A DNA stretch of 64,000 bases. Origin: Aporhodopirellula sallentina SM41. Its GTDB lineage: Bacteria > Planctomycetota > Planctomycetia > Pirellulales > Pirellulaceae. Position 1 is the first letter of the stretch, and each line of letters opens with the position of its first letter. The stretch is taken from contig NZ_ANOH01000048.1 in the NCBI RefSeq assembly GCF_000346505.1, positions 1 through 64,000 of the forward strand. Direction: 5' to 3'. The position numbers and the translations under genes were made by a program. Shown piece after piece: positions 4,762 through 51,407 of this stretch. The notes under the pieces were generated by a model. It saw only the letters and a list, made by a program, of their open reading frames with translations. It ran no database searches and was not told the origin of the DNA.

Positions 4762-6036
4762 ATGAGCTCCCCCGAATCGTCATCACCGCAATCGCAGGTA
4801 TCCGCCGATGACTTGGTCGTCACGATCGAAGGCGTCGAGCTGAAACTGGCACATCCGTATGAGTCCCCCGGTGACTGGATCGGCCAGAGCGAAATCCTGA
4901 AGCAATTGCTGGCGTGCTGGATCACGGTGGATGACACCGATTTACCGTTGACGCCGCGGCTGCTCGGATCCCCCGGAGTTGGCAAGACTCAATTAGCGAT
5001 CGCCGCGGCAAAACAGCAAAAACTCCCGCTCTATATCTACCAGTGCACCGCGGACACCCGTCCGGAAGATTTGCTGATCACCCCCGTCCTCAGCCGGGGT
5101 GGCGAGATTTCGTACCACGCCTCACCGCTGGTCAGTGCCATGATCCGAGGCGGTGTTTGCATCCTGGACGAGGGAAACCGGATGAATGAGAAATCGTGGG
5201 CGTCCCTCGCACCATTGCTGGATAACCGCCGCTATGTGGAGTCAATCGTTGCCGGGATCACGATCCCCGCGTCGCGCAACTTCCGCGCCGCGGTCACGAT
5301 GAACCAAGACGAATCCACCTTCGAGATCCCCGACTACATTCTCAGCCGCCTGCAACCGACGCTCCAAGTCGGTTTCCCCAACAAGCAGGACGAGATGGCG
5401 ATCCTGCAGTACCACCTGCCGTTCGCCGAGCCGGAAATGCTCGCGTTGACGGTGGACTTTCTGCAGCATTCCCACGAGTTGAAACTGGATTTTTCCTCTC
5501 GCGACGGCATCAACCTGCTGCGATACGCGATCAAACGAATGGCACAGGATCCCGACCATCCCGTCGCCCACGAGGACGCGTGGCAGGAAGCCTTGGAAAA
5601 ATGCCTCGGCGAGGAAGCCGTCGATCTAGAAATGCTGGCCGAACGCCGCAGCCGAACGCTCGGCGGCGATGCGGTGCCATTGGGATTGGCGGACCTGTTT
5701 TTCGACCCGAATGATCCGCTGCATCCTGACCGCGAAGAGGATGACGATGACGACGATCTCGACGGGATCGTAGGGGCGGATCGAACGCTGGAATTTTCGC
5801 CGCCGAGGCTCCTCGGTGTCGAATCACATCGGCCTAACTCCCCCAGCGATGGTCTTTTCGAGGACCTACCAGATCGAGGCGAGGACGGCTATGTTTTCAC
5901 CTGCGAAGAGCCATCGGCCACCGCCTCGACAGCCCACGTTCCATTGACGCCTTCAAGACCGATCCGAAAACTCATCGGCCGATCGGCGTTCGCCGCGGTT
6001 AACACAAGACAACCGGGGCTAACGCCCGCCGGCTAG
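4762..6036 (+). CDS. MoxR-family AAA+ ATPase with unusual C-terminal extension
   Basis: The 424-residue product has Walker [10 protein letters not shown] at 69-77, Walker B with ILDEGNRM at about 133-140, and a sensor-1 region with VTMNQDE. These are hallmarks of MoxR ATPases, which remodel or activate partner proteins that often carry von Willebrand factor A domains. The ATPase and lid domains end near residue 325. An Asp/Glu-rich stretch ([10 protein letters not shown]) follows, then about 90 residues that look unlike a folded MoxR segment and end over a GC-rich hairpin (GGGGCTAACGCCCGCCGG near 6016). The tail could be a real linker or could come from a recent frameshift past an older stop. 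No DUF58 or VWA partner gene is adjacent. Confidence 0.85.
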
Positions 6037-20837: not shown

Positions 20838-23252
20838 TTACGGCTTTGATTTACGCTTTTGCTTCTTCGGCTTGCCCGTAAAGGTGCGTTTGCCCCCTTG
20901 GGGACCACCGCGTTTCCCGTTCTTGGGCCGGAAACCGTTACGGTTGCCACCGCGTTGATAACCACCACGCTGGTAACCGTCACGAGGGCCATCGCCGAAG
21001 TCACCGTCTCGGGCGACCTCGAGATTCAACCGCTTGCCCGATACCCAGGTTTTGCGGAGCTTTTGATAGATATCCGACGGCATGCCTTCGGGCAAATCGA
21101 TCGTACTGAAGTCGTCACGGATATTGATTGGACCAATGTACTGCCCTTCAATCCCCGCTTCGTTGGCGACCGCACCGACGATGTTGCCCGGTTTCACTCC
21201 ATCTTGCCAACCGACTTCGATGCGATAGCGAACCATGCCCTCGCGTGGTGGACCGAGTTGCCGTTGCGGTTTGTTACCACGACCGTGCGCGCCTCCGCGG
21301 TCATCGCCGCCGTAATGGTCACCACGATCGAATCGTCCATCGTGATGTTCGGAACGCTGTCGAGTCGGACGATCTTTCATCAAGAACGGACGTCCTTGCA
21401 TCGACATGTCCGCTAAGGCGGCAGCGATCATTTCCAACGGCTTGCCAGATTCCTCGGAGTACTTCGCGATCAACTCTTTGAAGAGAGTGAGGTCCTTCGC
21501 AGCAGTCGTTTCGGTGATTTGCTCGCCAAAGCGTTTGATCCGAATTTCGTTGATCTCGTCGGCGGTCGGAACACCAACGACCTCAATCGGCTGCTTAGTC
21601 GCTCGCTCGATCTGACGCAGTTTCCCTCGTTGGTTTTTGGTGAGGAAAATGATCGCCTCGCCGTCGCGTCCCGCCCGTCCGGTTCGTCCGACACGGTGAA
21701 TGTAGGATTCCGAATCGTGCGGCAAATCGTAGTTGAACACGTGACTGATGCGAGGCACGTCGAGCCCGCGGGCAGCGACATCGGTCGCGACGAGAATGTC
21801 GAGTTTACCGTTCTTGAGTTGACTGATGGTCCGCTCGCGAACCTTCTGTGGCATGTCTCCGTTAAGTGCCACGGCTGACAGTCCTTCTCGCGAGAGACTC
21901 TCGGCGACGCTGATGGTTGCGTCCTTCGTTTTAGTGAAGACGATCACGCCGTCGGTTTCTTCGACTTCGAGAAGTCGGACGAGCGTGTCGATTTTCTCTC
22001 GCGGTGGAACAAACAGGGCTCGTTGGCGGATCGACTCGGCGGTCGCCGTTTTCTTCTTGATCGTGATCCGAGCCGGGTCGGTCAAATACTCATCAGCAAT
22101 GCTGCGGATCGGGCCGGGCAGGGTTGCCGAGAACAACGCGACCTGACGAGTGGAAGGCGACTTCTCGAGGATGAATTCGACGTCTTCGAGGAAGCCCATG
22201 TTGAGCATCTCATCGGCTTCGTCGAGAACCAGACAATCGAGTTTGCCGAGATCCAACGTGCCGCGGTTGACGTGATCGATCACGCGTCCGGGCGTTCCAA
22301 CCACAACCTGCACGCCGCGGCGGAGTTGTTTCAACTGGGGTTCGTAGTCTTGGCCGCCATAAATGGCAGCGACTGCAAAACCGGGAACCTTGGCACCATA
22401 GGTCGAGAACGATCTGGCGACCTGGATAGCCAACTCGCGGGTTGGTGCGAGCACCAAAACTTGTGGGTGATACTTTTTGGTATCGATCGTCGTCAGGATC
22501 GGCAGAGCGAACGCCGCCGTCTTGCCGCTGCCCGTTTGGGACTGAGCGAGCACATCACGGCCTTGCAGCATGTGCGGCAGAATTTCGGCTTGAATCGGCG
22601 TCGGGGTGTCGTAGCCCGATTTCTCAACCGCCTCGAGAACTTCGCTGCGAAGCGGAAAAGCGGCGAAGCCCTGTTTTTCTTCGACGACAACTGCTTCTTC
22701 GACCACAACCTTTTCTTCGGCTACTACGGGTGCTTCGACCGCGACCTTTTCTTCGGCCACAACGGCTTCTTCGACTGTGATGCTCTCTTCGGTCGCAACG
22801 GATTCTTCGACAGTAACCTTTCCTTCAACTGCAGCGTTTTCTTCGACTGCAACGTTCTCTTGAGACGCAACGCTTTGTTCAATATCGACCGCTTCGCTAG
22901 GAACCTGTTCTTCGTTGTGAACCGGTTCGTTCGGAACGTTTTGATTCAACAGGTTTTGATCGAACGCATCGTCGCTCACGACGACTTCTTCTACCGTTGC
23001 GACGGCGGCATCCACACCGGTCTCAACGACCGGTGCCGAGCAGATGATTGCGTCCTCGTTTTCGGTCGCTTCGGGAAGGCATTCGACGACGGTATCCTGC
23101 GTGTAGCACGCCAACAGGGCGTCATGGGTGGCCGGTTCGGCGTGGACCGAGGACTCGATCGACGAATCACTGTCGGAATATGGGTTGGGTTCGGTAGACG
23201 GAATCTGTTCAGACAAAACGGTGTTCTCAGAGTTTGGAAATTGACTCGACAT
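20838..23252 (-). CDS. DEAD-box RNA helicase (CsdA/DbpA-like) with acidic repeat N-terminus
   Basis: The 804-residue protein has the full DEAD core (about residues 235-600): Q motif with TPIQAEILP, Walker A AQSQTGSGKT, PTRELAIQ, VLDEADEMLNMGF, SATLP, and HRVGRTGRAGR. A DbpA/CsdA RNA-binding domain follows (VRYRIEVGWQDGVKPGNIVGA...), then a basic Gly/Arg/Lys-rich tail ending KKQKRKSKP. The first 230 residues are unusual: acidic, with repeated VEE/VAEEK-type units. It probably unwinds structured RNA or assists ribosome assembly, as its relatives do in the cold. The start ATG at 23252 (MSSQFPNSE) fits the codon pattern; the frame extends 43 residues further upstream. Confidence 0.93.
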   Translation of the reverse strand: MSSQFPNSENTVLSEQIPSTEPNPYSDSDSSIESSVHAEPATHDALLACYTQDTVVECLPEATENEDAIICSAPVVETGVDAAVATVEEVVVSDDAFDQNLLNQNVPNEPVHNEEQVPSEAVDIEQSVASQENVAVEENAAVEGKVTVEESVATEESITVEEAVVAEEKVAVEAPVVAEEKVVVEEAVVVEEKQGFAAFPLRSEVLEAVEKSGYDTPTPIQAEILPHMLQGRDVLAQSQTGSGKTAAFALPILTTIDTKKYHPQVLVLAPTRELAIQVARSFSTYGAKVPGFAVAAIYGGQDYEPQLKQLRRGVQVVVGTPGRVIDHVNRGTLDLGKLDCLVLDEADEMLNMGFLEDVEFILEKSPSTRQVALFSATLPGPIRSIADEYLTDPARITIKKKTATAESIRQRALFVPPREKIDTLVRLLEVEETDGVIVFTKTKDATISVAESLSREGLSAVALNGDMPQKVRERTISQLKNGKLDILVATDVAARGLDVPRISHVFNYDLPHDSESYIHRVGRTGRAGRDGEAIIFLTKNQRGKLRQIERATKQPIEVVGVPTADEINEIRIKRFGEQITETTAAKDLTLFKELIAKYSEESGKPLEMIAAALADMSMQGRPFLMKDRPTRQRSEHHDGRFDRGDHYGGDDRGGAHGRGNKPQRQLGPPREGMVRYRIEVGWQDGVKPGNIVGAVANEAGIEGQYIGPINIRDDFSTIDLPEGMPSDIYQKLRKTWVSGKRLNLEVARDGDFGDGPRDGYQRGGYQRGGNRNGFRPKNGKRGGPQGGKRTFTGKPKKQKRKSKP

Positions 23253-23841
23253 GCTGGCTTTCGATGCGCAAAACACCCCGCAAACCGAATCACGAAACCG
23301 GTCGGTTGGGGCGTGGTGGAAATGGGAAGGATGGCGTGGCGAACGAACGCACCGGCATACAAAACCAGTGCGACGCAACACAGATCGCGACGCTGCTTTC
23401 TCTTCCCGGGCAAATGATCAGAAAATCATGCCCTTGGACGGTTCATTTACTCGCGAACGTGATTGCGAGGCGGAAACCGATAAAGACTTGTCGCGTTATT
23501 GAGCCCGTGAATCGTGAAAATCCCGCATGTCTTCGCTACCGCACAAAGCATAAGATCGCTGGCGGTTATGACCCTGCGGAAGGATCGGATCGAAGTTCTG
23601 TGAATCTTCGACGGCTCTTTGTTGGGGCGGAGTCTAACCGAAACTCTCATTTTGCAATAGGAGAAATCCGTGAACTCGGCGCGGTTCGCGACTTACTTGC
23701 CATCCCCCCCCGCAAGGGCTGCACTCACTCGCACCCCGATTCATCGGATGAATTCAACTGATTCGCTATCAGGCGACGCGCCCGATTGTCCGATGAAAAC
23801 CGCGGCTAAGGCCGATCGCCTGATGAGCTTTCGGATGGGTG
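23253..23841. other. Long gap (589 bp), probable leader of the helicase gene
   Basis: No credible gene is seen in this long gap upstream of the helicase on the minus strand. A plus-strand frame at 23670 has an AGGAG but an odd composition and runs antisense into the NUDIX gene. Long untranslated leaders are common for cold-regulated helicases, so it may be a regulatory leader; this is inference. It also holds a run of eight C at 23704-23711. Confidence 0.45.
23768..23824 (-). terminator. Possible 3' hairpin after the speA-NUDIX operon
   Basis: The 9-base arms ATCAGGCGA (23768-23776) and TCGCCTGAT (23816-23824) are perfect reverse complements. They lie 18 bases past the NUDIX stop on the minus strand. 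The 39-base loop is long and there is no T-run, so this is at best a weak or Rho-assisted terminator. Confidence 0.3.
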
Positions 23842-27030: not shown

Positions 27031-30000
27031 TCAGAGGATGCACAGCTTGTAGCTCAGGTAAGGTTCCAGAGCAAAATTGTTTTCCGGCACGTCGGCCGGC
27101 GAAGTTCCTCCGACGGTCACATCGATGGTGTCACCCGAGTCGGCAGGGGTCGCTCCCGTGCCGTCCTGTTCGAGCCCATCGTTGAAGAACGAAGGCATGT
27201 CGAGGCGTTGAACCTGATAGTCACCCGCGATCAGTCCGTCGAACTCGTAGAACCCGTTTTCGTCCGTCGTGGTGCGAAGACCGTCGGTGCCGAGATCGCC
27301 ACCGGTCAGCAACAACTCAATCCCCTCGAGACCGTTGTCCATGCCGTTGAGCAACCCGTCGTTGTTGAAATCGCGGAAGACAGTTCCAGAAAGCTCGTTG
27401 ATCGCTTGGTCAATCGCGGTCGTTGCGGTAGCCGTGTTGGTACGATCGTTGGTGATTTCCTGCGTCGTGGTCGACACCGTCACCGAGTTCACCTGATCGG
27501 CGGTCACCCCGGCATTGACTGTCGCGATGATCGTGAACTGGAACGAATCCCCCGACGCCAACGCGGCGTTATTCAGTGGTGTCACCGTCACGACACCGTT
27601 AGTCGCGGTGAGATCACCGTCCGGACCGGTACCGCTGACGAAAGTCACGCCCGATGGCAGAGTATCCACAACCGTAACACCCTCGGCCGGCGATGGTCCG
27701 TCATTGAAGACCGTTACCGTGTAGGTCAACTGAGAACCAACCTGAGCGGTCGAGGTACTCACGGTCTTGGTCACGTAGACGTCGGCCTCCGGAACCACGG
27801 TCACGTTGGATGCTGCCGCATTGTTGTCCGTTTGCGTTTCACCGGTATCGGTCACCAAGCTGACATTGTTCGTCAAGGCACCCGAGGCATCGTCATCCAC
27901 CGTGGCGGTGATCGTGATCGTCCGAGTGGATCCCGGTGCGAGATCAAACTCAGGCATCACGATCGTACCGTTGGTGGTGCTCGTTGGCGTCACGGTCGAC
28001 CCACCGGAGGTTGCCGATTGGAACGTCAATCCGTCCGGCAACGAATCCGTCACGATGATTCCCGTCGCCAACGATGGACTCAGTCCGTTGTCTGCTTCGG
28101 TACCGTCGTCGTCGGTATCGTGCGAAACCACCATGGTGAAGGTGACCGTATCGAGCGGCCCAACCGTGCCGGTTCCGTCAGTCGATTTCGAAATCGTGAT
28201 ATCGAACTCAGGCGTTGTCGTGATCGTGACCGAGTCGTCGTTATTGGTCACATCGAGCTCGGTCACTCCTGGGACGGCAACCGATGCCGTGTTGACGATG
28301 TCTCCCGTGGCGGAGGCATCCACGTCGGCGGTGACGGTGAAGGTTCGCGTTTCTCCAACAGGGATCGATGCGTACTCGACCAAGATTTGGCGAGTCGTCG
28401 TGTTGAAGAAGTTCGTGTTGCTGGCTCCCGCGGCGACAACACTGACTCCGGTCAAGTTCGCCGGCAGAGTGTCTGTCACGTCAACGTTCACTGCGTCAGA
28501 GATACTGTCGACGTCGTGGCTGACCGTGAACGTGTAGATCACTTGGTCTTGGCCGGGGACGACGGTCGTGACGTTGACGCTCTTGTCGAGGATCAAATCC
28601 ACGCGTGCTTCCGGATCGACCTGAACGGTGTCGGTATTCGCTGCGTGTCCAGTCGGCTCGGTGTCGGTTGTCGCGATCACAACATCGTTGTCGAGCGGAC
28701 TGAACTGATCGCTCGCGACGGCTGCCTCAAAAGTGAATGTTCGCGACTCACCGGGTGCCAGGTCAGGCACGTTGAATGTGATCGTTTGACCGGAACTCGA
28801 CGCGATCGTTGCACCGCTGGTCAGCGGGTCAAAGCTACCGGCGACAAGTGACAATCCGGTATCGAGCGTGTCGGTCACGGTCACGCCACGAGCCTCGGAC
28901 GTTCCGGAGTTGGTTGCCACAATTTCATAGGTGACAAACCCGCCGGCGAAGACGTCAAACGGTGCGGTGCTGTCGATGATGTCATCGGCGTCATCACCAT
29001 CGGTTCGATCGTCCGGAGTGCGGGTGGAGATCACGGTCTTGGCAACCGTCACGTCCACTTCACGCTCAACGGGAGTCTCGTCGGTTGCGGTGACGTCAGC
29101 AGCGTTGTCCGCCGTGGCGGTGACGGAGTTCGACAGGGGCGAATCGGCATCCTGGAACGCGGCATCGACCAACACGCGGAAGGTCACCGTCTCGCTTTCC
29201 GATCCAGCCATATCGCCGAAAGTGATCCGCAGTTTGCCGTCATCGGCACCGCCGCTGACCAACTCAACCGTACCGCTGCCGGTGGTGAATGTTCCCGAAC
29301 CGGCGACATACGAGACACCGGTTGGCAAGGTGTCGAGTGCAACAACGTTGGTCGCGGCGTCCGTGCTGACGTTGGTCACCGTCACGGTGTAGGTGAGCTC
29401 GTCACCGGCGATAACAGTGTCAGGTGCGTCGATCCCGTCGGTCTTGGTGATGGTCAGTTCCGCCAACGGAACGTCCGCGGTTTCCACGGCGATGTTGTTC
29501 TCGAGTGCTCCGTCAACCGGATCGCCGGTCGCACGGTCCGCGTCGGTCGGGTCATTGTCGACTTCGACTTGGAATCCAGACACTTCAATTTCGTTGACCG
29601 GATCCGCGGTCAGGCTCGCGTCGATCGATGTGGTCACGGTGTACGTGACGCTCGCTCCGGCGGCGAGGCTACCAACGTCGAAGGTATGGACAGGGCGACC
29701 GTCTCCATTGGTCGTGGTCGTTGTTGCGACCGTGCTCGAACCACTGTCGACCACGCTGACGAACGTCAGGCCTTCAGGAATGGTGTCGCTTACGGTAACG
29801 TCCGTGGCATCGGTTTCGCCGAGGTTGATGATCGTCACGGTGAAGACCGCGGTTCCGCCGAGCGTCAAATTGCTCGAGCCATTATCAATGGTTTTATCAA
29901 TCCGCAGGTCAGTCGTCGGCAAGACCCCAAAGTCAACGGTGGTGTTCTCGTTGCCGCCGGTCGGTTCGCCGCCAATGGTCAAGGTGATCGAACCGCTGAT

Positions 30001-31620
30001 GAATCCGACGCCATCGACCCAGACACCGTCGTTATCGTTGCCCGCATCGTCATCGGTATCACCAGCGGGTGTATCGATCGAACTGCCAATGTGTCCCTCG
30101 AGCGGTTGGCCGGTGGTGAATTGGTCGGCAGGAATCATCACATAGTAGGTTCCCGGCCCCAGGTCGTCACCGCTGGTCAATGTCGTGAACGAGTAGGAAC
30201 CGATATCCGCGCCACCGAGTGGATTCACCGTCGTGGTCGCGATTGGTGTTTGCAGACCGTCGCTCGGATCGGTGTCATACAGTTCGATCTCGATCGGATC
30301 GCTGGCGGCGGCTTGGAATAGTCCCTCACCGGCATCCTGCAAACCATTGTCCTGTTCGGCTTGGTCGGTGCCGCCACCGTTATCGATGAAGACTTCACCA
30401 CCGAGCGTCAACGGAACGGTAGCAACCGAGTTGGCAACGTTCTCGTTGCTGCGACGCGAGTCCAAGATCGACAGGAAGAAATCCAACCCAGGTGCACCGG
30501 CGCCACTGTTGCTATTGACCCCATCGACGAAACCTTCGATTGCACCGACGTCTTCAAAATCAGCCCCGGTTCCGCCACCAGTCACAAAACTGGAAAAAGG
30601 AACAAACACATTAAGTGGATCTCCCGACCCGATATTGTCTGGCAAATCGATCGTGGCGATCGAGAAATTAGCCGCGTCGGTGTAAACACGCACGACCAGA
30701 CCGCCCGTGACGACCGTGTCGCTGCGAACCGCAATCTGCAACCCGCTTGCAGAGTCACCATCGGTCAGGTCAATCCCGCCAAGACCGGTTCCGTCGAGCG
30801 CCAAACCAGCGCCGTCACTGTCGACACCGTCGTACTGCACCAACAGGGTCGCTTCGACGTCACCGCCGTTGGAGAACACGAGTTGGTTCGAACCGGTAAC
30901 GACTTCAAAACTGCTCGTTCCGCTGCTCGCGTTGTCGATAAAGATTTCAACATCACGTTCGTCACCGACGACACCACCAGCCGATCCCAGTGCACCGGAA
31001 CTGCTCGTGGTGGTCGACCCAACCACTGTTTCGGTGATCGGTTGGGAAGGTTGGGCGGTCAAGAAATCATCGATTGTTACCGCGGTCACACCATCGTCAT
31101 CGGTGACCTGAACTCCCACGTCATCCGACAGAACCACACCGGCGATCGGCGTTCCCCCAGAGTCCTGAACCCCACCGGCTCCCGCAGCAAACGTCAAAAC
31201 GTAGAACCCATCGGTCGTGACGAAGGGGTTTGTTAGCCCGGCATCCTCAGTCGCATCGTCGTTGGCAACGGTATCCTCACCGTCGAGACCTGTGAAGCGA
31301 TAGACACCGTCGGCGCCCGTGGTCATCGTGCCGACCAACGTCTCACCTGCATCGAACACACCGTTCTGCGTGACGTCGTCCAAGTACAGATTCACATCAA
31401 CGTTTTGCAGCAACGTTTCGCCCACGTCGACCGTGTTGTCACCGTCGGCGTCAATGAATGCCACCCCACTGATTGCTCCCAAGTCGCTGGCGAGCAATTC
31501 GCGTTTTTGCAACGATTCGAGCTTAAGACGCCGGCCGTTCTTACCACGACGTGTGGCCGAACGTTCGTTGCGTCGAGTCTTTTGACCGGTAAGTCGGTCG
31601 ATCATGCGTTGCCAAATCAT
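27031..31620 (-). CDS. Giant surface protein with SdrD-B and DUF11 repeats
   Basis: The 1529-residue protein opens MIWQRMIDRLTGQKTRRNER, a basic leader, then LKLESLQKRELLASD, which resembles the planctomycete LEPR-x-L-L-type sorting signature. An SdrD-B/Cna-B-like region follows (AISGVAFIDADGDNTVDVGE). Next come at least seven DUF11-type beta-sandwich units recognisable by VTDTLP/VVDTLPSGVTFVSG and PGES-x-TFT motifs. A final SdrD-B unit (LSGTVFRDFNNDGLLNGMDNG) closes it. The ATG at 31620 has GAAGG at good distance. No C-terminal sorting motif or membrane helix is seen (it ends SYKLCIL). Such proteins are probably exported, calcium-binding stalks or adhesins on the cell surface. Confidence 0.88.
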   Translation of the reverse strand: MIWQRMIDRLTGQKTRRNERSATRRGKNGRRLKLESLQKRELLASDLGAISGVAFIDADGDNTVDVGETLLQNVDVNLYLDDVTQNGVFDAGETLVGTMTTGADGVYRFTGLDGEDTVANDDATEDAGLTNPFVTTDGFYVLTFAAGAGGVQDSGGTPIAGVVLSDDVGVQVTDDDGVTAVTIDDFLTAQPSQPITETVVGSTTTSSSGALGSAGGVVGDERDVEIFIDNASSGTSSFEVVTGSNQLVFSNGGDVEATLLVQYDGVDSDGAGLALDGTGLGGIDLTDGDSASGLQIAVRSDTVVTGGLVVRVYTDAANFSIATIDLPDNIGSGDPLNVFVPFSSFVTGGGTGADFEDVGAIEGFVDGVNSNSGAGAPGLDFFLSILDSRRSNENVANSVATVPLTLGGEVFIDNGGGTDQAEQDNGLQDAGEGLFQAAASDPIEIELYDTDPSDGLQTPIATTTVNPLGGADIGSYSFTTLTSGDDLGPGTYYVMIPADQFTTGQPLEGHIGSSIDTPAGDTDDDAGNDNDGVWVDGVGFISGSITLTIGGEPTGGNENTTVDFGVLPTTDLRIDKTIDNGSSNLTLGGTAVFTVTIINLGETDATDVTVSDTIPEGLTFVSVVDSGSSTVATTTTTNGDGRPVHTFDVGSLAAGASVTYTVTTSIDASLTADPVNEIEVSGFQVEVDNDPTDADRATGDPVDGALENNIAVETADVPLAELTITKTDGIDAPDTVIAGDELTYTVTVTNVSTDAATNVVALDTLPTGVSYVAGSGTFTTGSGTVELVSGGADDGKLRITFGDMAGSESETVTFRVLVDAAFQDADSPLSNSVTATADNAADVTATDETPVEREVDVTVAKTVISTRTPDDRTDGDDADDIIDSTAPFDVFAGGFVTYEIVATNSGTSEARGVTVTDTLDTGLSLVAGSFDPLTSGATIASSSGQTITFNVPDLAPGESRTFTFEAAVASDQFSPLDNDVVIATTDTEPTGHAANTDTVQVDPEARVDLILDKSVNVTTVVPGQDQVIYTFTVSHDVDSISDAVNVDVTDTLPANLTGVSVVAAGASNTNFFNTTTRQILVEYASIPVGETRTFTVTADVDASATGDIVNTASVAVPGVTELDVTNNDDSVTITTTPEFDITISKSTDGTGTVGPLDTVTFTMVVSHDTDDDGTEADNGLSPSLATGIIVTDSLPDGLTFQSATSGGSTVTPTSTTNGTIVMPEFDLAPGSTRTITITATVDDDASGALTNNVSLVTDTGETQTDNNAAASNVTVVPEADVYVTKTVSTSTAQVGSQLTYTVTVFNDGPSPAEGVTVVDTLPSGVTFVSGTGPDGDLTATNGVVTVTPLNNAALASGDSFQFTIIATVNAGVTADQVNSVTVSTTTQEITNDRTNTATATTAIDQAINELSGTVFRDFNNDGLLNGMDNGLEGIELLLTGGDLGTDGLRTTTDENGFYEFDGLIAGDYQVQRLDMPSFFNDGLEQDGTGATPADSGDTIDVTVGGTSPADVPENNFALEPYLSYKLCIL

Positions 31621-31941
31621 CGTTTCACTACCTTCGTTGGCTAGTGGTTTGTCTGTGGGGGGTGTCAGCAGCGATTCAACTCGCTCGTGAACGCCAATCG
31701 CAAATACCCAAGAACGCTGTCGCGAAAAAAATGTCGTCTGAAAAGGGCTCACCGGGGCGAACCTTCTCCGTTGGACGCTGCCATGGACGCCTAAGTTTCA
31801 CGATCACACTCGGAACGTCTTCGTTGAACCGTCTCGGCGGATTCGATGCAGAATCTGCACATTCGGTTCAATCGGCTGTTTCGTTTCGTCCGCGACAGCC
31901 GTCAGGCTTTCACACGGACGATTCATCCTGACCGTTAAGCT
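31621..31941. other. Intergenic region (321 bp) upstream of the surface-protein gene
   Basis: This is probably the promoter and leader of the large gene at 27031-31620 plus the 3' end of the BBP7 transcript. I found no convincing terminator with a T-run and no credible coding frame. Confidence 0.5.
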
Positions 31942-44397: not shown

Positions 44398-44573
44398 CGC
44401 TGCTCTTCACGATGGCTCGCTGGCATCGGCGAGCTCAGTTTCACCGTGAAACCGGACGCGTCGCTTTGAACGGCGAGACGGTTTTGGATTCATGATGGTG
44501 ATCGAAGATGCCGATCACAACGACTGGAGCGCCTTTACTCGCGCGCCACGTGCAATTGAATCCGGGGGGAGTC

Positions 44574-45737
44574 ATGAGAGATCGTTCTGAAAACAGGGTC
44601 CAGCGCCGACGTGCGTTGACGCTCGGTGTCGCCGTATTGGCGTCGGCGTCAAGCGTTTGCCGGCACGCCGGAGCGGAAAGACCTTCCGCGGTCATTCAAG
44701 CCGGAGGCGGCGTTGCTCAAGAGCGTGCGCCGATCGTTTCCCGCGTGTTCCGGTTGCCTCCCGTCGACGACGAAGTTGAACAGGTCGTTGTGACGGCGAT
44801 CGCGGTTGACCCCCGTGGTGAGTTCTTGGCGGTCGCCGGTGACGACCACGTCATTCGAATTTTGAACGCGGAAACCTTTGACGTCGTGCGAGTTCTCGGC
44901 GAAGGCGGATCCGAGAAATCCACCAATCCCGGTCACTTTGACTGGATCCGAACGATGGCGTTTGACGCGTCCGGAACACGATTGGTGTCGGCGGGCAACG
45001 ACGGACAGATGATTCTGTGGGATCGTCGTCGCGATTTCACCGTCCTGCAAGAAATCGATTCAGCCCCCGCGCTCGCGTGCGTGCGTTTTGCCGGTTCGGG
45101 AAAACAGATCGCCGCGGTCGGGTTTGACTCGCAGGTGTTCTTGATCGGCAAAACAGTCAGCTCGATGCCGAAACTCCGTTGCCATTGTGTCGATCTGCGT
45201 TGCTGTGCGTATCGCGACGACGGACGCATGCTGGCCGTGGCGGGGCGTGATGGACACATTCATTTGTTCGATCCGTTGACCGGAAAAACCCTGAATGAAA
45301 AACGTCTTCACTCCGCCCGCATCCGCGATATCGCGTTCATGCCAAACTCGAATGTTCTCGTGAGCGTGGGCGAAGACGGCGAGATCATGCGGTTCGACAC
45401 CGCCGGCCAAACGCTGCTGTCGCGACAACGGATCACCTCGGGGCGTCTGTTTTCGTTGGCGATCGTGGACAGCCATCTGTTAGCGACCGCCGGCAGCGAT
45501 GACGAAATTCACCTGGTGCGGTTGAACGAAGACGACCAGCGACTCTTTCCGATGGCGACTCTGAGCGGTCATGTCGGATCGATTTCGACATTGGTGGTCA
45601 ACAACGGAACTCTGATTTCGGGTGGCTTTGATGCAACGCTCAGGCGTTGGGATTTGGCTCAAATGGCGAGCCCCGAAAGCAAGATTGCTCTCGGAAACGA
45701 CGCGGACAACGGCAGTCTGACCCCAACCCCTCGGTAG
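44574..45737 (+). CDS. WD40-repeat-like beta-propeller protein with probable signal peptide
   Basis: The 387-residue protein has a short N-terminal segment with RRRALTLGVAVLASASSVC, a possible Tat- or Sec-type signal. At least five to six WD40-like repeats follow (VTAIAVDPRGEFLAVAGDDHVIRILNAET; RTMAFDASGTRLVSAGNDGQMILWD; GHVGSISTLVVNNGTLISGGFDATLRRWD). GGGGGAG lies just before the ATG at 44574. It could be a periplasmic scaffold for surface assembly. The giant surface-protein gene starts 30 bases after its stop, so the two probably share a transcript. Confidence 0.8.
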   Translation: MRDRSENRVQRRRALTLGVAVLASASSVCRHAGAERPSAVIQAGGGVAQERAPIVSRVFRLPPVDDEVEQVVVTAIAVDPRGEFLAVAGDDHVIRILNAETFDVVRVLGEGGSEKSTNPGHFDWIRTMAFDASGTRLVSAGNDGQMILWDRRRDFTVLQEIDSAPALACVRFAGSGKQIAAVGFDSQVFLIGKTVSSMPKLRCHCVDLRCCAYRDDGRMLAVAGRDGHIHLFDPLTGKTLNEKRLHSARIRDIAFMPNSNVLVSVGEDGEIMRFDTAGQTLLSRQRITSGRLFSLAIVDSHLLATAGSDDEIHLVRLNEDDQRLFPMATLSGHVGSISTLVVNNGTLISGGFDATLRRWDLAQMASPESKIALGNDADNGSLTPTPR

Positions 45738-45767
45738 AGAAATCTGCGGCACAGGGAGGTGCCCGGC

Positions 45768-48700
45768 GTGATCTGGAAACACATCGAAAACATCTGCAGC
45801 GGACTCGGAATTGCCAGCAGCAAGCGGTCGCGACTGCGCGAACCGTCGCCCACGAGCGTGCGCACCCGCCGTGGACATCTGAGCAAACTGATCGCCGCCT
45901 CATCGCAGCGTCCCGGGGTTCACTCCCGGAACATGCGAGTCGAATCACTCGAAGAGCGACGCCTGATGGCGGCCGATCCGATTCATGTCGGGGTCGTTTA
46001 CCTCGAAACCGATTATCTCGAAACCGACGTGGGTAGCGACTCGGCTGGTGACAAGTTCATTCTCTCGTTCACCGGGGGTGCGCCGGGAACGACGCTAACC
46101 GAACTGCGGATCATCACCGACAAAGACGGCGACGGTATTAGCGTTGGTGACCCCATTTTCGACACCGAGGCAGGTGGGCGTGGTAAGAACGGTTTCCACG
46201 GCTTTGAATTGGTCCCCGGTCAGTCCGAGGTGGTCGAAGTCGAGGTCGTCGACGGCGGTCAGGAATTGATCCTTCGCCCGGAAGACTTCCAGGCGGGCGA
46301 TCAACTCGTCTTCACACTCGACGTCGACGAAGTCCTGCGGAATCTGGAGGACCTCGAACAGTTCAACCAACGCCTCGACGTGATCACGTCGGGACAGGAA
46401 TTCCAAGATTCAATCCTCGAAGCCGTCTTCGAAGCCCCCAACTACTACGAAGCGTCCGCAGATTCGATCTTCCTGAACGACTATGGCGATCCTAAAGCCG
46501 ACTTTGGGCTGAACCTGCCGCCGGACGAAAGCGATGAGGCCGAGAGTTTGCCGAACCGTTCGGCCGCCGCCGTCGCGAGCGTCACGCAAACCCCGCGCCC
46601 AGCCTCGGTGGGCGGTTTCGTCTATCGCGACGACAACGATTCGGGAACCAAAGACCCCGGCGAAGTCGGCTTGGGTGGCGTCCTGATTCGCCTCGAACCG
46701 ATCGACACGATCGCACCGCAAGCGACCCTGACGACCACCACCGCGGCGGATGGCTCCTACCAGTTCGACAACGTCATGCCGGGAACCTACCGGATCGTTG
46801 AAGTCGATCAACCTGAAGACCTCGACGACGGAAAAGACGCCGCCGGAACGATCTCGGGTCGTGTGGTCGGTTCGGCCGTGAATCCCGGTGACGAAATCGT
46901 GGGTGTCGTCCTCAACGGTGGCGACGCGGGGATCAACTACAACTTTGGTGAACTGCCGCTCGGTTCGATTGGGGGCTTCGTTTACCTCGCCGCACCGGGC
47001 GCCGATTGCGACGGCGATCATGACGACGGTGACAGCACACCGTTGCCGGACGTCGAAATCCGGCTGATCGACGAGAACGGCAACGTCGTCGAGACGACTT
47101 ACACCGGTGCCGACGGCAGCTACCGATTCGACGATCTTCACAAAGGCGTCTACAGCATCGTCGAAGTCACACCCGAAGGATTGATCGACGGCGGCGCGCA
47201 CCCCGGCGATATTCAAACGCTCGCATCAAACGTCTTGGTGGGAATCGGTTCCGCGGTGGACGGCGGAACGATCACTCACGTCGAATTGCCATCCGGCGGT
47301 CAGGGTGAGTCCTACAACTTCTGCGAAGCCGCCCCGGGATCGATCTCCGGACAGGTCTACCACGACCGTGACAACGATGGTGTCAGGGATACCGGCGAAG
47401 AAGCCATCGAAAATGTTTCCTTGGACCTGGTGGACGCTAGCGGTACGATCGTCGCGTCCACTCAGACGGATTCTCAGGGGCAATACATCTTCGATGACTT
47501 GCCCCCGGGAACCTACTCGGTCATCGAAACGCAACCATCCGGGTACATCGACGGCAAGGACCGCGTCGGGACGATTGGTTCGGCGCAGAGCGGTCGACTT
47601 GGCGCCGACAACGACTCGCTCGTCGACATCGTGCTGCGGCAGGGTTTGCACGGAGTCAACTATGACTTCGGCGAACGCCAAGTCGCCTCCATCAGCGGTC
47701 GTGTTCACGTCGACCTCGACGAAGACTGCGAACTCGACCCGAATGAGACCACGCTCGCGGGCGTCGTCATCGAACTGAAGGACGAAAGCGGCAAAACCAT
47801 CGCGACGACGCAAACAGATGCGTTGGGAATGTATTATTTCGACAACTTGCTGCCCGGCACGTACAGCGTCGTCGAACAACAACCGGCAGGTTACTTCGAA
47901 GGTGGCGCCACGGTCGGCTCTGCAGGCGGTGTGCTCGACGGCACCAACCGAATCGAACAAGTGACGCTCACGTCAGGCGAGAACGCGACGGACTACGATT
48001 TCTGCGAACGCCCACCGGCCGACCTTTCGGGGGTCGTCTATGTCGACCGCGATGCTGACTGCATTCGTGATCCGAACGAGGAAGGGCTCGAAGGCGTCTT
48101 GATTGAACTGATCGATTCGTCAGGAAACGTTGTCGCGAGCACCACCACCGACGCCAACGGGGAATACCGGTTTACCAATCTCCGCGCCGGAGATTACCTC
48201 GTCCGCGAAACACAACCCGACGGCTACTTCCACGGCGGACAAACCGCGGGTAGCCACGGCGGTAACGATTCGGTCACCGACCGCATTTCAGCGATCCCGG
48301 TCGGTTGGGGTGAAACGCTAACCAACTACAACTTCTGCGAGGTACTGCCCGCGGAAATTTCAGGGATTGTCTACGTCGATCGCGACAACGATTGCGTTCG
48401 AGACAGCGGTGAGGAAGGCCTCGCGGGCGTCTTGATCGAACTGATCGACAGCAGCGGCAACGTCGTCGACTCAACGACCACCGACGCCAATGGCAACTAC
48501 TCGTTCACCAACCTGGAAGCCGGCGAGTATGTCGTTCGCGAGACGCAGCCGGAAGGATATTTCCACGGCGGCCAAACGGCGGGCAGCAAAGGTGGCAACG
48601 ATTCCATCGCCGACCGCATTTCAGCCATCCCGGTCGGATGGGGCGAGACACTGACCAACTACAACTTCTGCGAAGTGTTGCCTTCGGAGATTTCAGGTGT

Positions 48701-51407
48701 TGTCTATGTCGACCGAGACGAAGACTGCTTCCGCGACAGCAACGAAGAAGGACTCGCGGGCGTTCTAATCGAGCTTCTCGATAGCACCGGTACCGTTGTC
48801 GCCACGACGACCACCAACTCGCTGGGCGAGTATTCGTTCACGAACCTGCGGGCAGGCGAATACCAAATCCGCGAAACGCAGCCTGCCGGATACTTCCACG
48901 GCGGACAGGTCGCCGGCAGCAAGGGAGGCGATGACTCCATGGCCGACCGCATTTCGGCCATCCCGGTCGGATGGGGCGAGAGCCTAGTTAACTACGACTT
49001 CTGCGAGTTGCTACCGTCGGAGATTTCCGGAGTCGTCTATGTCGATACTGACCGCGATTGTTTCCAAGACCCCGACGAGATTGGACTCGGCGGCGTGCGG
49101 GTCGAACTCTACAACGATGCAGACCAACTGATCGCGTTCACGCTGACTGCGAACGACGGCAGTTACAGTTTCACGAACCTTGAAAAAGGAAACTACACGG
49201 TTCGCGAGATTCAACCCGAAGGTTATTTCCACGGCGGACAAGTCGCCGGTAGCGGCGGCGGGGACGACTCGGTCGACGACGTGATCTCGCAAATCGCCTT
49301 GGCGTCGGGACAATCCGCGACACGCTACGACTTCTGCGAACTGCCCCCGGCAACGATCTCCGGGAAGGTTTGGAGCAACCTGGATCTCGACCAAGAGTTT
49401 GACGAGAACGAATCTCCGATCCCCGGCGTCGTGATCGAACTGCGGGACGAGTCCGGCAACGTCATTGCAACCACACAAACCGATGCGGACGGGTGCTATG
49501 AATTCACCGGCCTGCGTCCCGGTCGTTATCAGGTCAAAGAGTATCAACCCGAAGATTACTTCCACGGCGGGCAAACCATCGGAACGCTCGGCGGTCGCCT
49601 GCTGCAATTCGACTTGATCGGCGAGATCGATGTCGAAGGTGGCGAACACGGAACCGAATACAACTTCCCCGAAGTCCCGCCGGTCACCATTTCCGGTTAT
49701 GTGTTCCAAGACGGCGACGCGCTCGTCCTTAGCGACACTCCCGATCCCGAGGATTTACGAGACTATCGCGACGGGCAACTCACCAGCGATGATACCCTCC
49801 TCGGCGGAGTGACCCTGGAACTACGTGACGTCTTTGGCGTTGCGATCGATCCGGCCAACGATCAGCTCGGCAACTCGTCGTCCAACGTAATCCGCGTCAC
49901 CACCGACGAAAACGGCTACTACGAGTTCACCGGCCTGCGCCCGCGGATCGTCTACTCCGTGTATCAAACTCAACCGACCGGCTATGTCGATTCGCTCGAT
50001 ACGGCAGGGACCACCGGCGGCCTCGCGATCAATGTCGCGGACTTCCCCGACCCCGGTGCCCTCAATTCCTTTATCTCAAGATTGGCCGAAGGCGGCGATC
50101 CAAAGTTCGACGCGATTTTCAACATCCAAGTCGATCCGGGACAAACCAGCACGAGCAACAACTTCAGCGAGATCGTGATCGAAGAACCGCCCGTCGTGCC
50201 ACCTCCGGCCGACGAAGATCCTGCCCCCGAGGCACCGATCACGCCGATCGAAACCTTCGATCCGGTCGTGCCCGTGGAAGCCTACTGGCAACCACAAAAC
50301 ATCACCCGGCCTATGTTGGCCGACGACGAATGGGAAGTCAGTTGGCACCTCAGCGTGATCAACGGCGGGTTCCCCCGAGGACAAGGCACTGCGTCGGCGA
50401 TGATGGCATCGAGCGATGGACGTTTGCAAATCCAACAGGCAACCTATCGTGGTGCCGATGACGCAAACGGTGCTGCCGTTGGCAAACTGCCGGACGTGCT
50501 TCTCGAAGTCAACCTATCGAAAGGTCGTTGGCAAATCACGCCGAGCAGCGCGAACACGATGCAGCCCCTTTCGGCCAACACCCGTAGTCTCTCGGCCGAG
50601 ACCAGTGACGATTCAATCCGCCTCGGCCACGAAGACGCGACCGCGTTGACGGGCGACTTCGATGGCGACGGTGTCGACGAAGCCGTGCTGTTTATCAACG
50701 GACAATGGTTTGTCGACCTCAACGGCGATGGGCAGTGGGACGCGGGCGATTTGTGGGTTCGCCTCGGCACCGAACTCGACCGACCTGTCGTCGGTGACTG
50801 GGACGGCGACGGCAAAGACGACGTCGGAATCTTTGGTCGACGTTGGCAGAACGATGCCGAACGAATCCGACAGGACCCCGGCTTGCCTGACCCAGCCAAC
50901 CATCGACGACGTCAACTCCGACGCGAAGACCTCGTTCACCGCGAGCTCACCGAAGAAGAGAAACAACAACGTCTGTTGCTGCGAGGTGAAGACGGGAAGT
51001 GGCTCGCCGATGCGGTCGATCACGTGTTCCAATACGGCGAACAAGTCGACACGCCGATCGCAGGTGACTGGAACGGCGACGGCATCGATCAGATCGGTGT
51101 CTTCCGCAGCGGTCAATGGATGCTCGACGAAGACGGCGACGGTCGATGGACCAGCAAAGACCGACCGAAGACATTCGGGCGTCCTGGTGATGAACCCATC
51201 GTCGGTGACTTCAACGGCGACGGCATCGACGAGATCGGAGTCGTCCGTGGCGACCTATGGATCATCGATACCGATGGCGACCGTCGTATCACCGGTAACG
51301 ACAAACAGATCCAAGTGCCTCGGCCGAGCGGTGATGCACAACCGATCGCGGGCGACTTCGACGGCGACGACATCGACGATCCAGGCTACTACCAAGCCGC
51401 CGGATAA
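45768..51407 (+). CDS. Giant surface protein with ten SdrD-B repeats and FG-GAP-like end
   Basis: The 1879-residue protein starts at GTG 45768 (read MIWKHIENICSG), with GGGAGG 9 bases upstream. A basic leader and MRVESLEERRLMAAD match the start and signature of the protein at 27031-31620. After an N-terminal beta domain, ten SdrD-B units (about residues 280-1420) follow, each with 'SG-V-Y-D-D-D-C-D' and 'TTTDANGEYRFTNLxxGxY' motifs and 'YNFCE' ends; units 4 to 9 are exactly 111 residues. The last part has FG-GAP/VCBS-like GDFDGDGVDEAVLF and GDWNGDGIDQIGVF repeats with calcium-binding D-x-D-x-D-G loops. It is probably exported and rigidified by calcium, acting as a stalk or adhesin. Confidence 0.9.
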   Translation: MIWKHIENICSGLGIASSKRSRLREPSPTSVRTRRGHLSKLIAASSQRPGVHSRNMRVESLEERRLMAADPIHVGVVYLETDYLETDVGSDSAGDKFILSFTGGAPGTTLTELRIITDKDGDGISVGDPIFDTEAGGRGKNGFHGFELVPGQSEVVEVEVVDGGQELILRPEDFQAGDQLVFTLDVDEVLRNLEDLEQFNQRLDVITSGQEFQDSILEAVFEAPNYYEASADSIFLNDYGDPKADFGLNLPPDESDEAESLPNRSAAAVASVTQTPRPASVGGFVYRDDNDSGTKDPGEVGLGGVLIRLEPIDTIAPQATLTTTTAADGSYQFDNVMPGTYRIVEVDQPEDLDDGKDAAGTISGRVVGSAVNPGDEIVGVVLNGGDAGINYNFGELPLGSIGGFVYLAAPGADCDGDHDDGDSTPLPDVEIRLIDENGNVVETTYTGADGSYRFDDLHKGVYSIVEVTPEGLIDGGAHPGDIQTLASNVLVGIGSAVDGGTITHVELPSGGQGESYNFCEAAPGSISGQVYHDRDNDGVRDTGEEAIENVSLDLVDASGTIVASTQTDSQGQYIFDDLPPGTYSVIETQPSGYIDGKDRVGTIGSAQSGRLGADNDSLVDIVLRQGLHGVNYDFGERQVASISGRVHVDLDEDCELDPNETTLAGVVIELKDESGKTIATTQTDALGMYYFDNLLPGTYSVVEQQPAGYFEGGATVGSAGGVLDGTNRIEQVTLTSGENATDYDFCERPPADLSGVVYVDRDADCIRDPNEEGLEGVLIELIDSSGNVVASTTTDANGEYRFTNLRAGDYLVRETQPDGYFHGGQTAGSHGGNDSVTDRISAIPVGWGETLTNYNFCEVLPAEISGIVYVDRDNDCVRDSGEEGLAGVLIELIDSSGNVVDSTTTDANGNYSFTNLEAGEYVVRETQPEGYFHGGQTAGSKGGNDSIADRISAIPVGWGETLTNYNFCEVLPSEISGVVYVDRDEDCFRDSNEEGLAGVLIELLDSTGTVVATTTTNSLGEYSFTNLRAGEYQIRETQPAGYFHGGQVAGSKGGDDSMADRISAIPVGWGESLVNYDFCELLPSEISGVVYVDTDRDCFQDPDEIGLGGVRVELYNDADQLIAFTLTANDGSYSFTNLEKGNYTVREIQPEGYFHGGQVAGSGGGDDSVDDVISQIALASGQSATRYDFCELPPATISGKVWSNLDLDQEFDENESPIPGVVIELRDESGNVIATTQTDADGCYEFTGLRPGRYQVKEYQPEDYFHGGQTIGTLGGRLLQFDLIGEIDVEGGEHGTEYNFPEVPPVTISGYVFQDGDALVLSDTPDPEDLRDYRDGQLTSDDTLLGGVTLELRDVFGVAIDPANDQLGNSSSNVIRVTTDENGYYEFTGLRPRIVYSVYQTQPTGYVDSLDTAGTTGGLAINVADFPDPGALNSFISRLAEGGDPKFDAIFNIQVDPGQTSTSNNFSEIVIEEPPVVPPPADEDPAPEAPITPIETFDPVVPVEAYWQPQNITRPMLADDEWEVSWHLSVINGGFPRGQGTASAMMASSDGRLQIQQATYRGADDANGAAVGKLPDVLLEVNLSKGRWQITPSSANTMQPLSANTRSLSAETSDDSIRLGHEDATALTGDFDGDGVDEAVLFINGQWFVDLNGDGQWDAGDLWVRLGTELDRPVVGDWDGDGKDDVGIFGRRWQNDAERIRQDPGLPDPANHRRRQLRREDLVHRELTEEEKQQRLLLRGEDGKWLADAVDHVFQYGEQVDTPIAGDWNGDGIDQIGVFRSGQWMLDEDGDGRWTSKDRPKTFGRPGDEPIVGDFNGDGIDEIGVVRGDLWIIDTDGDRRITGNDKQIQVPRPSGDAQPIAGDFDGDDIDDPGYYQAAG
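47688..49685 (+). repeat. Six tandem 333-bp repeats in the giant surface protein
   Basis: Unit starts at 47688, 48021, 48354, 48687, 49020 and 49353 (the next domain begins at 49686) are each exactly 333 bases apart. Units 2-4 are near-identical over long stretches at the DNA level, for example GCCATCCCGGTCGGATGGGG. Earlier units of the protein are 348-375 bases. Confidence 0.9.

Follow-up and report, generated by a model that had tools for sequence, protein, structure and literature searches.

An old array of 333-bp SdrD_B units with putative disulphide staples in a predicted surface protein of Pirellulales

The B domains of the Staphylococcus aureus protein SdrD (PF17210; structures 10ps, 4jdz and 8vdk) offer the closest described counterpart to the repeat array considered here. 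In the available text of a structural study (PMC13174682), strands D, A and G of an SdrD B domain form one sheet, with strand F0 beside G, and an EF-hand-like site lies in the A-B loop, directly after strand A. The domains are short-linked, rigid and rod-like, and Ca2+ fixes the A-B loop; the words disulfide and cysteine are absent from the main text of that paper. A second point of comparison is provided by CnaB domains, in which an isopeptide bond links the first and last strands, and some SdrD_B domains are predicted to have Lys-Glu-Asn bonds (both from the available text of PMC12617251, a survey in whose main text planctomycetes do not appear). Planctomycetes, in turn, have long attracted notice for walls that are made of protein and contain cysteine, and an N-terminal export motif of the LExLExR type has been described in large, repeat-rich surface proteins of the group (both according to the portions of PMC8567305 at hand).

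The DNA analysed, referred to below as the window, is a stretch of 64,000 nucleotides from the planctomycete Aporhodopirellula sallentina SM41 (contig NZ_ANOH01000048.1). A single plus-strand open reading frame at 45759-51407, with a GTG start codon and 1882 codons for amino acids, spans the array and encodes an SdrD_B array protein, probably of the cell surface, with an orthologue in each of the 13 genomes of the genus. A Pfam profile search finds PF17210 (SdrD_B) in ten stretches of this protein (538.9 bits against a cut-off of 29.7), which bears out the SdrD-B identity given to the units in an earlier note on this DNA. The likeness to SdrD ends with the repeats: the rest of the protein has no match to SdrD, its host is a planctomycete, and the whole-protein SdrD model NF012181 is not reached (346.8 bits against a cut-off of 2500; best stretch 284-728, within the repeat part), which rules out the MSCRAMM adhesin SdrD as the identity of the whole protein. 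A plasmid search returned only distant SdrD-like matches, all below 60% identity, and 24 of the 62 records were staphylococcal.

Near its N-terminus the protein has a putative planctomycete extracellular motif of the LEERRLMAA type (45924-45980, plus strand, as are all features of this gene), which scores 24.9 bits with PF07595, just under the cut-off of 25.5, and the corresponding pattern E-x-[LMVI]-E-x-R was found by regular expression in 103 of 111 relatives; a location at the cell surface is suggested by this motif, and the protein may have an adhesive role. It is followed by a beta-rich N-terminal domain (45975-46601; AlphaFold2 pLDDT 94.5), the marker of the family, for which a fold search gave no clear match (best VIA, Z 7.2, within the stated noise level) and Foldseek gave none at E 0.001. 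Next come three SdrD_B units recognised in the unit parse: unit -3 (46605-46964; also found by Pfam) without paired cysteines, unit -2 (46965-47342; read from the translation) with paired cysteines and an altered Ca2+ loop, and unit -1 (47343-47690; 116 aa) with glycine at both of the corresponding positions. Downstream of the array are a longer SdrD_B-like unit (49689-50180, the end being approximate; PF17210 match at 49872-50015, below the cut-off) and a C-terminal region of FG-GAP-like repeats (50316-51404; PF13517, three stretches, 6.6e-07).

The array itself was described in the earlier note as six tandem SdrD-B units of 333 bp at 47688-49685, and this description is confirmed: all six lie in one frame with 111 codons each, and units start every 111 codons, from 47688/47691 to 49686/49689. 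By unit parse and alignment they are U1 (47691-48023), U2 (48024-48356), U3 (48357-48689), U4 (48690-49022), U5 (49023-49355) and U6 (49356-49688). Units outside the array are not 333 bp long, the three preceding ones being spaced about 120, 126 and 116 aa and the following one being longer. At the DNA level the repeat is far from uniform; Tandem Repeats Finder reports only 2.9 copies with a 76% match, and pairwise identities among U1-U6 are 49.8-75.4% for DNA and 43.2-82.9% for protein. Only U2, U3 and U4 are much alike (71-75% at the DNA level), with every other pair at 50-61%, and the long identical stretches that were said to be shared by the middle units prove to have been overstated: the longest is 25 bp (U3/U4), followed by 20 bp (U2/U3) and 17 bp (U2/U4). 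The latter two are expected from the protein sequences and the gene's own codon use (p 0.30 and 0.20), whereas the 25-bp run exceeds that expectation (p 0.004), as does the total of identical bases between U3 and U4 (252 observed versus 232.9 expected, with none of 3000 simulations as high).

This residual identity of U3 and U4 is one of several observations in favour of a young array, produced by recent unequal crossing-over or gene conversion and differing in copy number between strains. The exact 333-bp register would fit such an origin, middle units cluster by clade and not by position, also within two individual genomes (G001 and G011), a gene from another genus of the family (G018) has two units that are 84% identical with a pS of 0.40, and in Rhodopirellula europaea 6C contig ends interrupt the gene within the array. 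Against this stand a longest identical run of only 25 bp and synonymous sites at or near saturation: pS among U2, U3 and U4 is 0.59-0.72, compared with 0.67-0.70 for random synonymous codons, a level close to that between orthologues of a unit in different species; of the three pairs, U3/U4 is the lowest (4.5% of simulations are as low). Copy number, moreover, is constant over whole clades, including close species with a pS of about 0.2-0.5. Given the saturated synonymous sites, the history of copy number and the position-specific grouping of the outer units, recent duplication was rejected, and the recent duplication or gene conversion proposed in the earlier note is not supported; we consider a young array very unlikely.

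The history of the units can be followed in more distant comparisons. The array gene is present in all 13 genomes of the genus, that of the window included. In the 12 that have it complete, the array consists of six units (five genes) or of five (seven genes); in the thirteenth, Rhodopirellula europaea 6C, the gene is interrupted within the array and lies on two contigs. Draft breaks of this kind (L036/L037 and L044/L045 in R. europaea 6C) mean that unit counts in drafts need care. For two genes belonging to other genera the parse gives four and five array units, and 74 of the 78 units parsed in 15 genomes are 111 aa long. When the non-repeat parts are used to build a tree, all genes with six units fall into a single clade (support 94/95), and one gain, from five to six, is enough to explain them. 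The 78 units were also placed in a tree, based on few columns and with 22 of its 74 inner branches unresolved. In it, both U1 and the last unit cluster by position across species, the penultimate unit does so within the window's clade only, and middle units cluster by clade. Shared copy number and evenly diverged units in relatives had been named beforehand as the signs of an old and stable array, and this is largely what was found. Across 60 genes of the order, the number of SdrD_B units per protein is 3-13, and a unit with paired cysteines is most often followed by the next at a spacing of 111 aa; 111 aa is the usual length of such units across Pirellulales. Taken together, the clade-wise clustering of middle units, the residual U3/U4 identity and the range of 3-13 units show that units do turn over, slowly, and that rods do change in length, on scales from species to family. 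We conclude that the 333-bp array exists as described, is old, and has a structural explanation.

The units resemble SdrD B domains in Pfam family, in fold, in the EF-hand-like loop after the first strand and in their tandem arrangement with very short linkers. U3 and U4 were modelled together with AlphaFold2 (pLDDT 97.1, pTM 0.84), and in this model only two residues separate the last strand of U3 (103-107) from the first strand of U4 (110-118). The nearest solved structure to the pair is SdrD B1-B2 (10ps; Z 15.4), with an rmsd of 11.3 A over 202 residues, from which it follows that the angle between beads differs from that in 10ps; a single unit model superposes on 8vdk at 1.8 A over 106 residues (Z 14.7). 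The putative Ca2+ ligand positions 8, 10, 12, 16 and 19 are mostly acidic, and a complete ligand set is present in only about half of each class of unit (180 of 358 with paired cysteines, 106 of 208 with glycine at both positions); the loop may bind Ca2+.

Where the planctomycete units depart from SdrD B domains is in having cysteine in place of a loop glycine and of a residue of the last strand. In U1-U5, the DxDxDG loop has a cysteine at position 13 (C13) where its glycine would stand, and a second cysteine, at position 105 (C105), lies within the motif Y[ND]FCE on the last strand, while U6 has glutamine and proline at the two positions and no staple. The two cysteines occur together. Of 115 segments from the window protein and its orthologues, 67 have both, 48 have neither and none has one only, with the reservation that this count comes from a crude regular-expression parse and some of the 48 are not true units. 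In a larger set of 81 loci, 65 of which came from searches with peptide patterns in which cysteine was permitted but not obligatory, the figures are 254 both, 220 neither and 15 single, with 106 of 595 matches unscorable (232, 209 and 15 after removal of duplicates, 90 being unscorable). A fairer sample, chosen regardless of cysteine, comprises 60 genes picked by their N-terminal domain (60 of the 91 places listed); of its 424 units, 366 can be scored and 58 cannot, with 154 both, 195 neither and 17 single. The two large sets overlap, since several of the 60 genes also belong to the 65 loci. The domain can do without the staple, as U6, unit -3 and unit -1 lack the cysteines, and some single-cysteine units have no obvious partner, e.g. 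two in the locus L158.

The pairing could in principle serve something other than a bond within the unit, namely the binding of a metal (Zn, Cu or a haem-like cofactor) or a bond between units or molecules. Planctomycete walls contain cysteine-rich proteins (PMC8567305, in the portions at hand), and a cysteine in a Ca2+ loop could in principle ligate a metal. The evidence from adjacent units that differ at position 13 points the other way: in the 81 loci, position 105 matches its own unit in 204 cases and the next one in a single case, and in the set picked by N-terminal domain it does so 164 times against 6. A bond between units was rejected on these counts, and since C105 tracks C13 of its own unit by 204 to 1, the bond would be intra-unit. 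This own-unit association holds in alternating arrays too, strict alternation of stapled and unstapled units being seen in many genes. A metal site is further opposed by the presence of just two cysteines per unit in 251 of 258 paired-cysteine rows, by invariant columns that contain no conserved histidine or further cysteine, and, as described below, by the appearance of a cysteine at columns 70-77 where C105 is lost. We therefore regard metal binding or a bond between units as improbable, and an intra-unit disulphide as the best reading of the C13/C105 pairing that the sequences offer. Genes for disulphide formation are present in the genome, with three VKOR matches, one of which shares a 482-aa frame with a thioredoxin-like domain.

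Units that have C13 and lack C105 provide a further line of evidence. In 12 of 13 such units, spread over 11 loci, a cysteine is found at columns 70-77, compared with 3 of 156 units that have C105 and 0 of 208 that lack C13 (Fisher p 8e-15); 47 of 424 units were unscorable for these columns, and units shared between the two large sets were taken out of the second. Columns 70-77 overlap the end of strand 69-74 in the U3-U4 model, a strand that we equate, by the order of strands in the model, with a putative counterpart of SdrD strand F0. The same units speak to another possibility, that the paired cysteines reflect shared ancestry alone, one unit with two cysteines and one with two glycines having been duplicated with no bond needed. 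Units do duplicate within genes, so that unit counts are not independent; independent contrasts take account of relatedness. On all branches, 21 contrasts go the same way, none the opposite way and 2 show no difference when either partner is counted; with C105 alone the averages are 14.4, 0 and 8.6. On well-supported branches there are five contrasts (4 the same way, 0 opposite, 1 without difference), which are too few for significance, and this leaves shared ancestry some room. It has to accommodate, on the other hand, about 20-23 changes per cysteine on the best tree, which occur in step or together with a cysteine at columns 70-77, and a switch of partner in 12 units of 11 loci. Common descent as the sole cause of the pairing thus seems to us quite unlikely.

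Taken as a whole, the explanation that we think likely is that of an old rod of 111-aa SdrD_B beads, of which U1-U5 have a C13-C105 disulphide staple. The array would be the rod of an exported planctomycete surface protein, in which SdrD B-type (CnaB/transthyretin-like) beads, joined almost without linker, would act as a stiff spacer between the N-terminal domain and the FG-GAP-like C-terminal region; the stiffness is itself something we infer. In U1-U5, C13, taking the place of the usual glycine in an EF-hand-like Ca2+ loop after the first strand, would be oxidised after export and become bonded to C105, on the last strand of its own unit, in a disulphide that would pin the loop and the pair of first and last strands covalently, in addition to or instead of Ca2+. 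In some relatives the partner of C13 would be a cysteine in columns 70-77 instead. The period of 333 bp would then be the natural length of the domain, kept by structure and not a mark of fresh copying, with units rarely gained or lost (one gain, from five to six, within the genus). The staple would sit near the place where CnaB domains have their Lys-Asn isopeptide bond. The units and the isopeptide-bonded domains are alike in fold class and, if the disulphide is accepted, in the covalent joining of first and last strands; they differ in that the putative bond here is a disulphide running from the A-B loop to the last strand. An identity as isopeptide-bonded CnaB domains, which need a lysine on the first strand, an asparagine on the last and a catalytic Glu/Asp, was rejected, as no lysine was found at positions 1-8 in any of 232 paired-cysteine units.

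We make no claim for the C13/C105 form outside the family of the array protein. Six further SdrD_B loci from the same genome that were read (contigs C136, C393, C208 twice, C24 and C458) have no cysteine in their unit spans. In a wider sample of the phylum collected with PF17210, 119 of 129 distinct units were unscorable with the unit model and the remainder comprised 3 with both cysteines, 7 with neither and 0 with one; read directly, these loci have other cysteine patterns or none, except L136, which belongs to the same family and has C13/C105. Two loci from distant planctomycetes, L135 and L149, have SdrD_B repeats with a different, denser cysteine pattern, which suggests that disulphides, if that is what these cysteines form, arose more than once in the SdrD_B fold. 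Another distant planctomycete protein (L133, G139 C29:1-10600) is 3462 aa long and has 29 SdrD_B units spaced at 105-114 aa, with no cysteine in the unit spans. In L201 and L202, a short VADCL-type turn replaces the Ca2+ loop and cysteines are apparently kept at both ends; both are unscorable, as unit boundaries fall inside the last motif.

At the level of the whole gene, the protein resembles planctomycete extracellular proteins with PF07595 in its putative N-terminal export motif, large size and richness in repeats, and is unlike them in being restricted to the order, mostly single-copy and paired with a WD40 gene. Among 118 sampled genomes of the order (completeness of at least 90%), the N-terminal domain is found in 88, representing 59 of 73 genera, once in 85 of them and twice in three; a 392-genome sample of the phylum gave 12 matches, all from the same family or order. 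The neighbouring gene (44508-45737, plus strand; Pfam WD40, 4e-31) encodes a WD40 beta-propeller and lies 21 bp upstream of the array gene on the same strand. In 55 of the 56 relatives with enough flanking sequence (55 others have too little), the gene next upstream on the same strand encodes a WD40 protein; the one apparent exception, L074, was missed owing to a wrong domain position and does have a WD40 frame, which ends at 4894, ahead of the array gene's frame at 5003. The neighbour is kept in nearly all Pirellulales relatives examined, down to about 28% identity, and the remaining neighbours keep their positions in the closest species only. The array protein is a predicted surface protein that is specific to the order and mostly single-copy, and the conserved WD40 gene upstream of it suggests that the two genes form a functional pair; the WD40 protein is probably exported. 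A Tat signal seen by eye on the WD40 protein is not claimed; a crude regular expression finds one in 19 of 64 cases and also reads upstream non-coding codons.

More tentatively, and with slightly more doubt than conviction, we propose that Pirellulales share one mostly single-copy module, consisting of a WD40 protein and a disulphide-stapled rod with switching partners, in which rod length and stapling are tuned by lineage. If this is true, the staple would be a third way of hardening the SdrD_B fold, besides Ca2+ and isopeptide bonds, and lineages would tune both the stapling pattern (all beads or strict alternation) and the length of the rod. Among the literature matches listed, no description of C13/C105-stapled SdrD_B units in planctomycetes and no relevant title on planctomycete cystine or disulfide wall proteins was found; the literature searched likewise gave nothing on SdrD in Pirellulales and only unrelated titles on planctomycete isopeptide-bond adhesins, and the single paper listed for SdrD B-like domains together with disulfide concerns Macrococcus. 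The points worth following are the stapled-unit variant, its switch of partner and the order-wide pair of WD40 protein and rod. What began as a remark on a repeat array has become a testable claim in protein chemistry, that of a covalent lock near the isopeptide site of related domains, for which stapled and unstapled beads alternating within single proteins are built-in controls. Present across most of an order and accompanied by a conserved neighbour, the gene is also a natural target for work on the surface biology of planctomycetes.

Two further repeat features were noted elsewhere in the window. A second large repeat protein of 1573 aa, encoded on the minus strand at 27031-31752, has DUF11 repeats and one SdrD_B domain, and tandem repeats of 18/36 bp are present at 22675-22882 within a minus-strand open reading frame (20838-23381).
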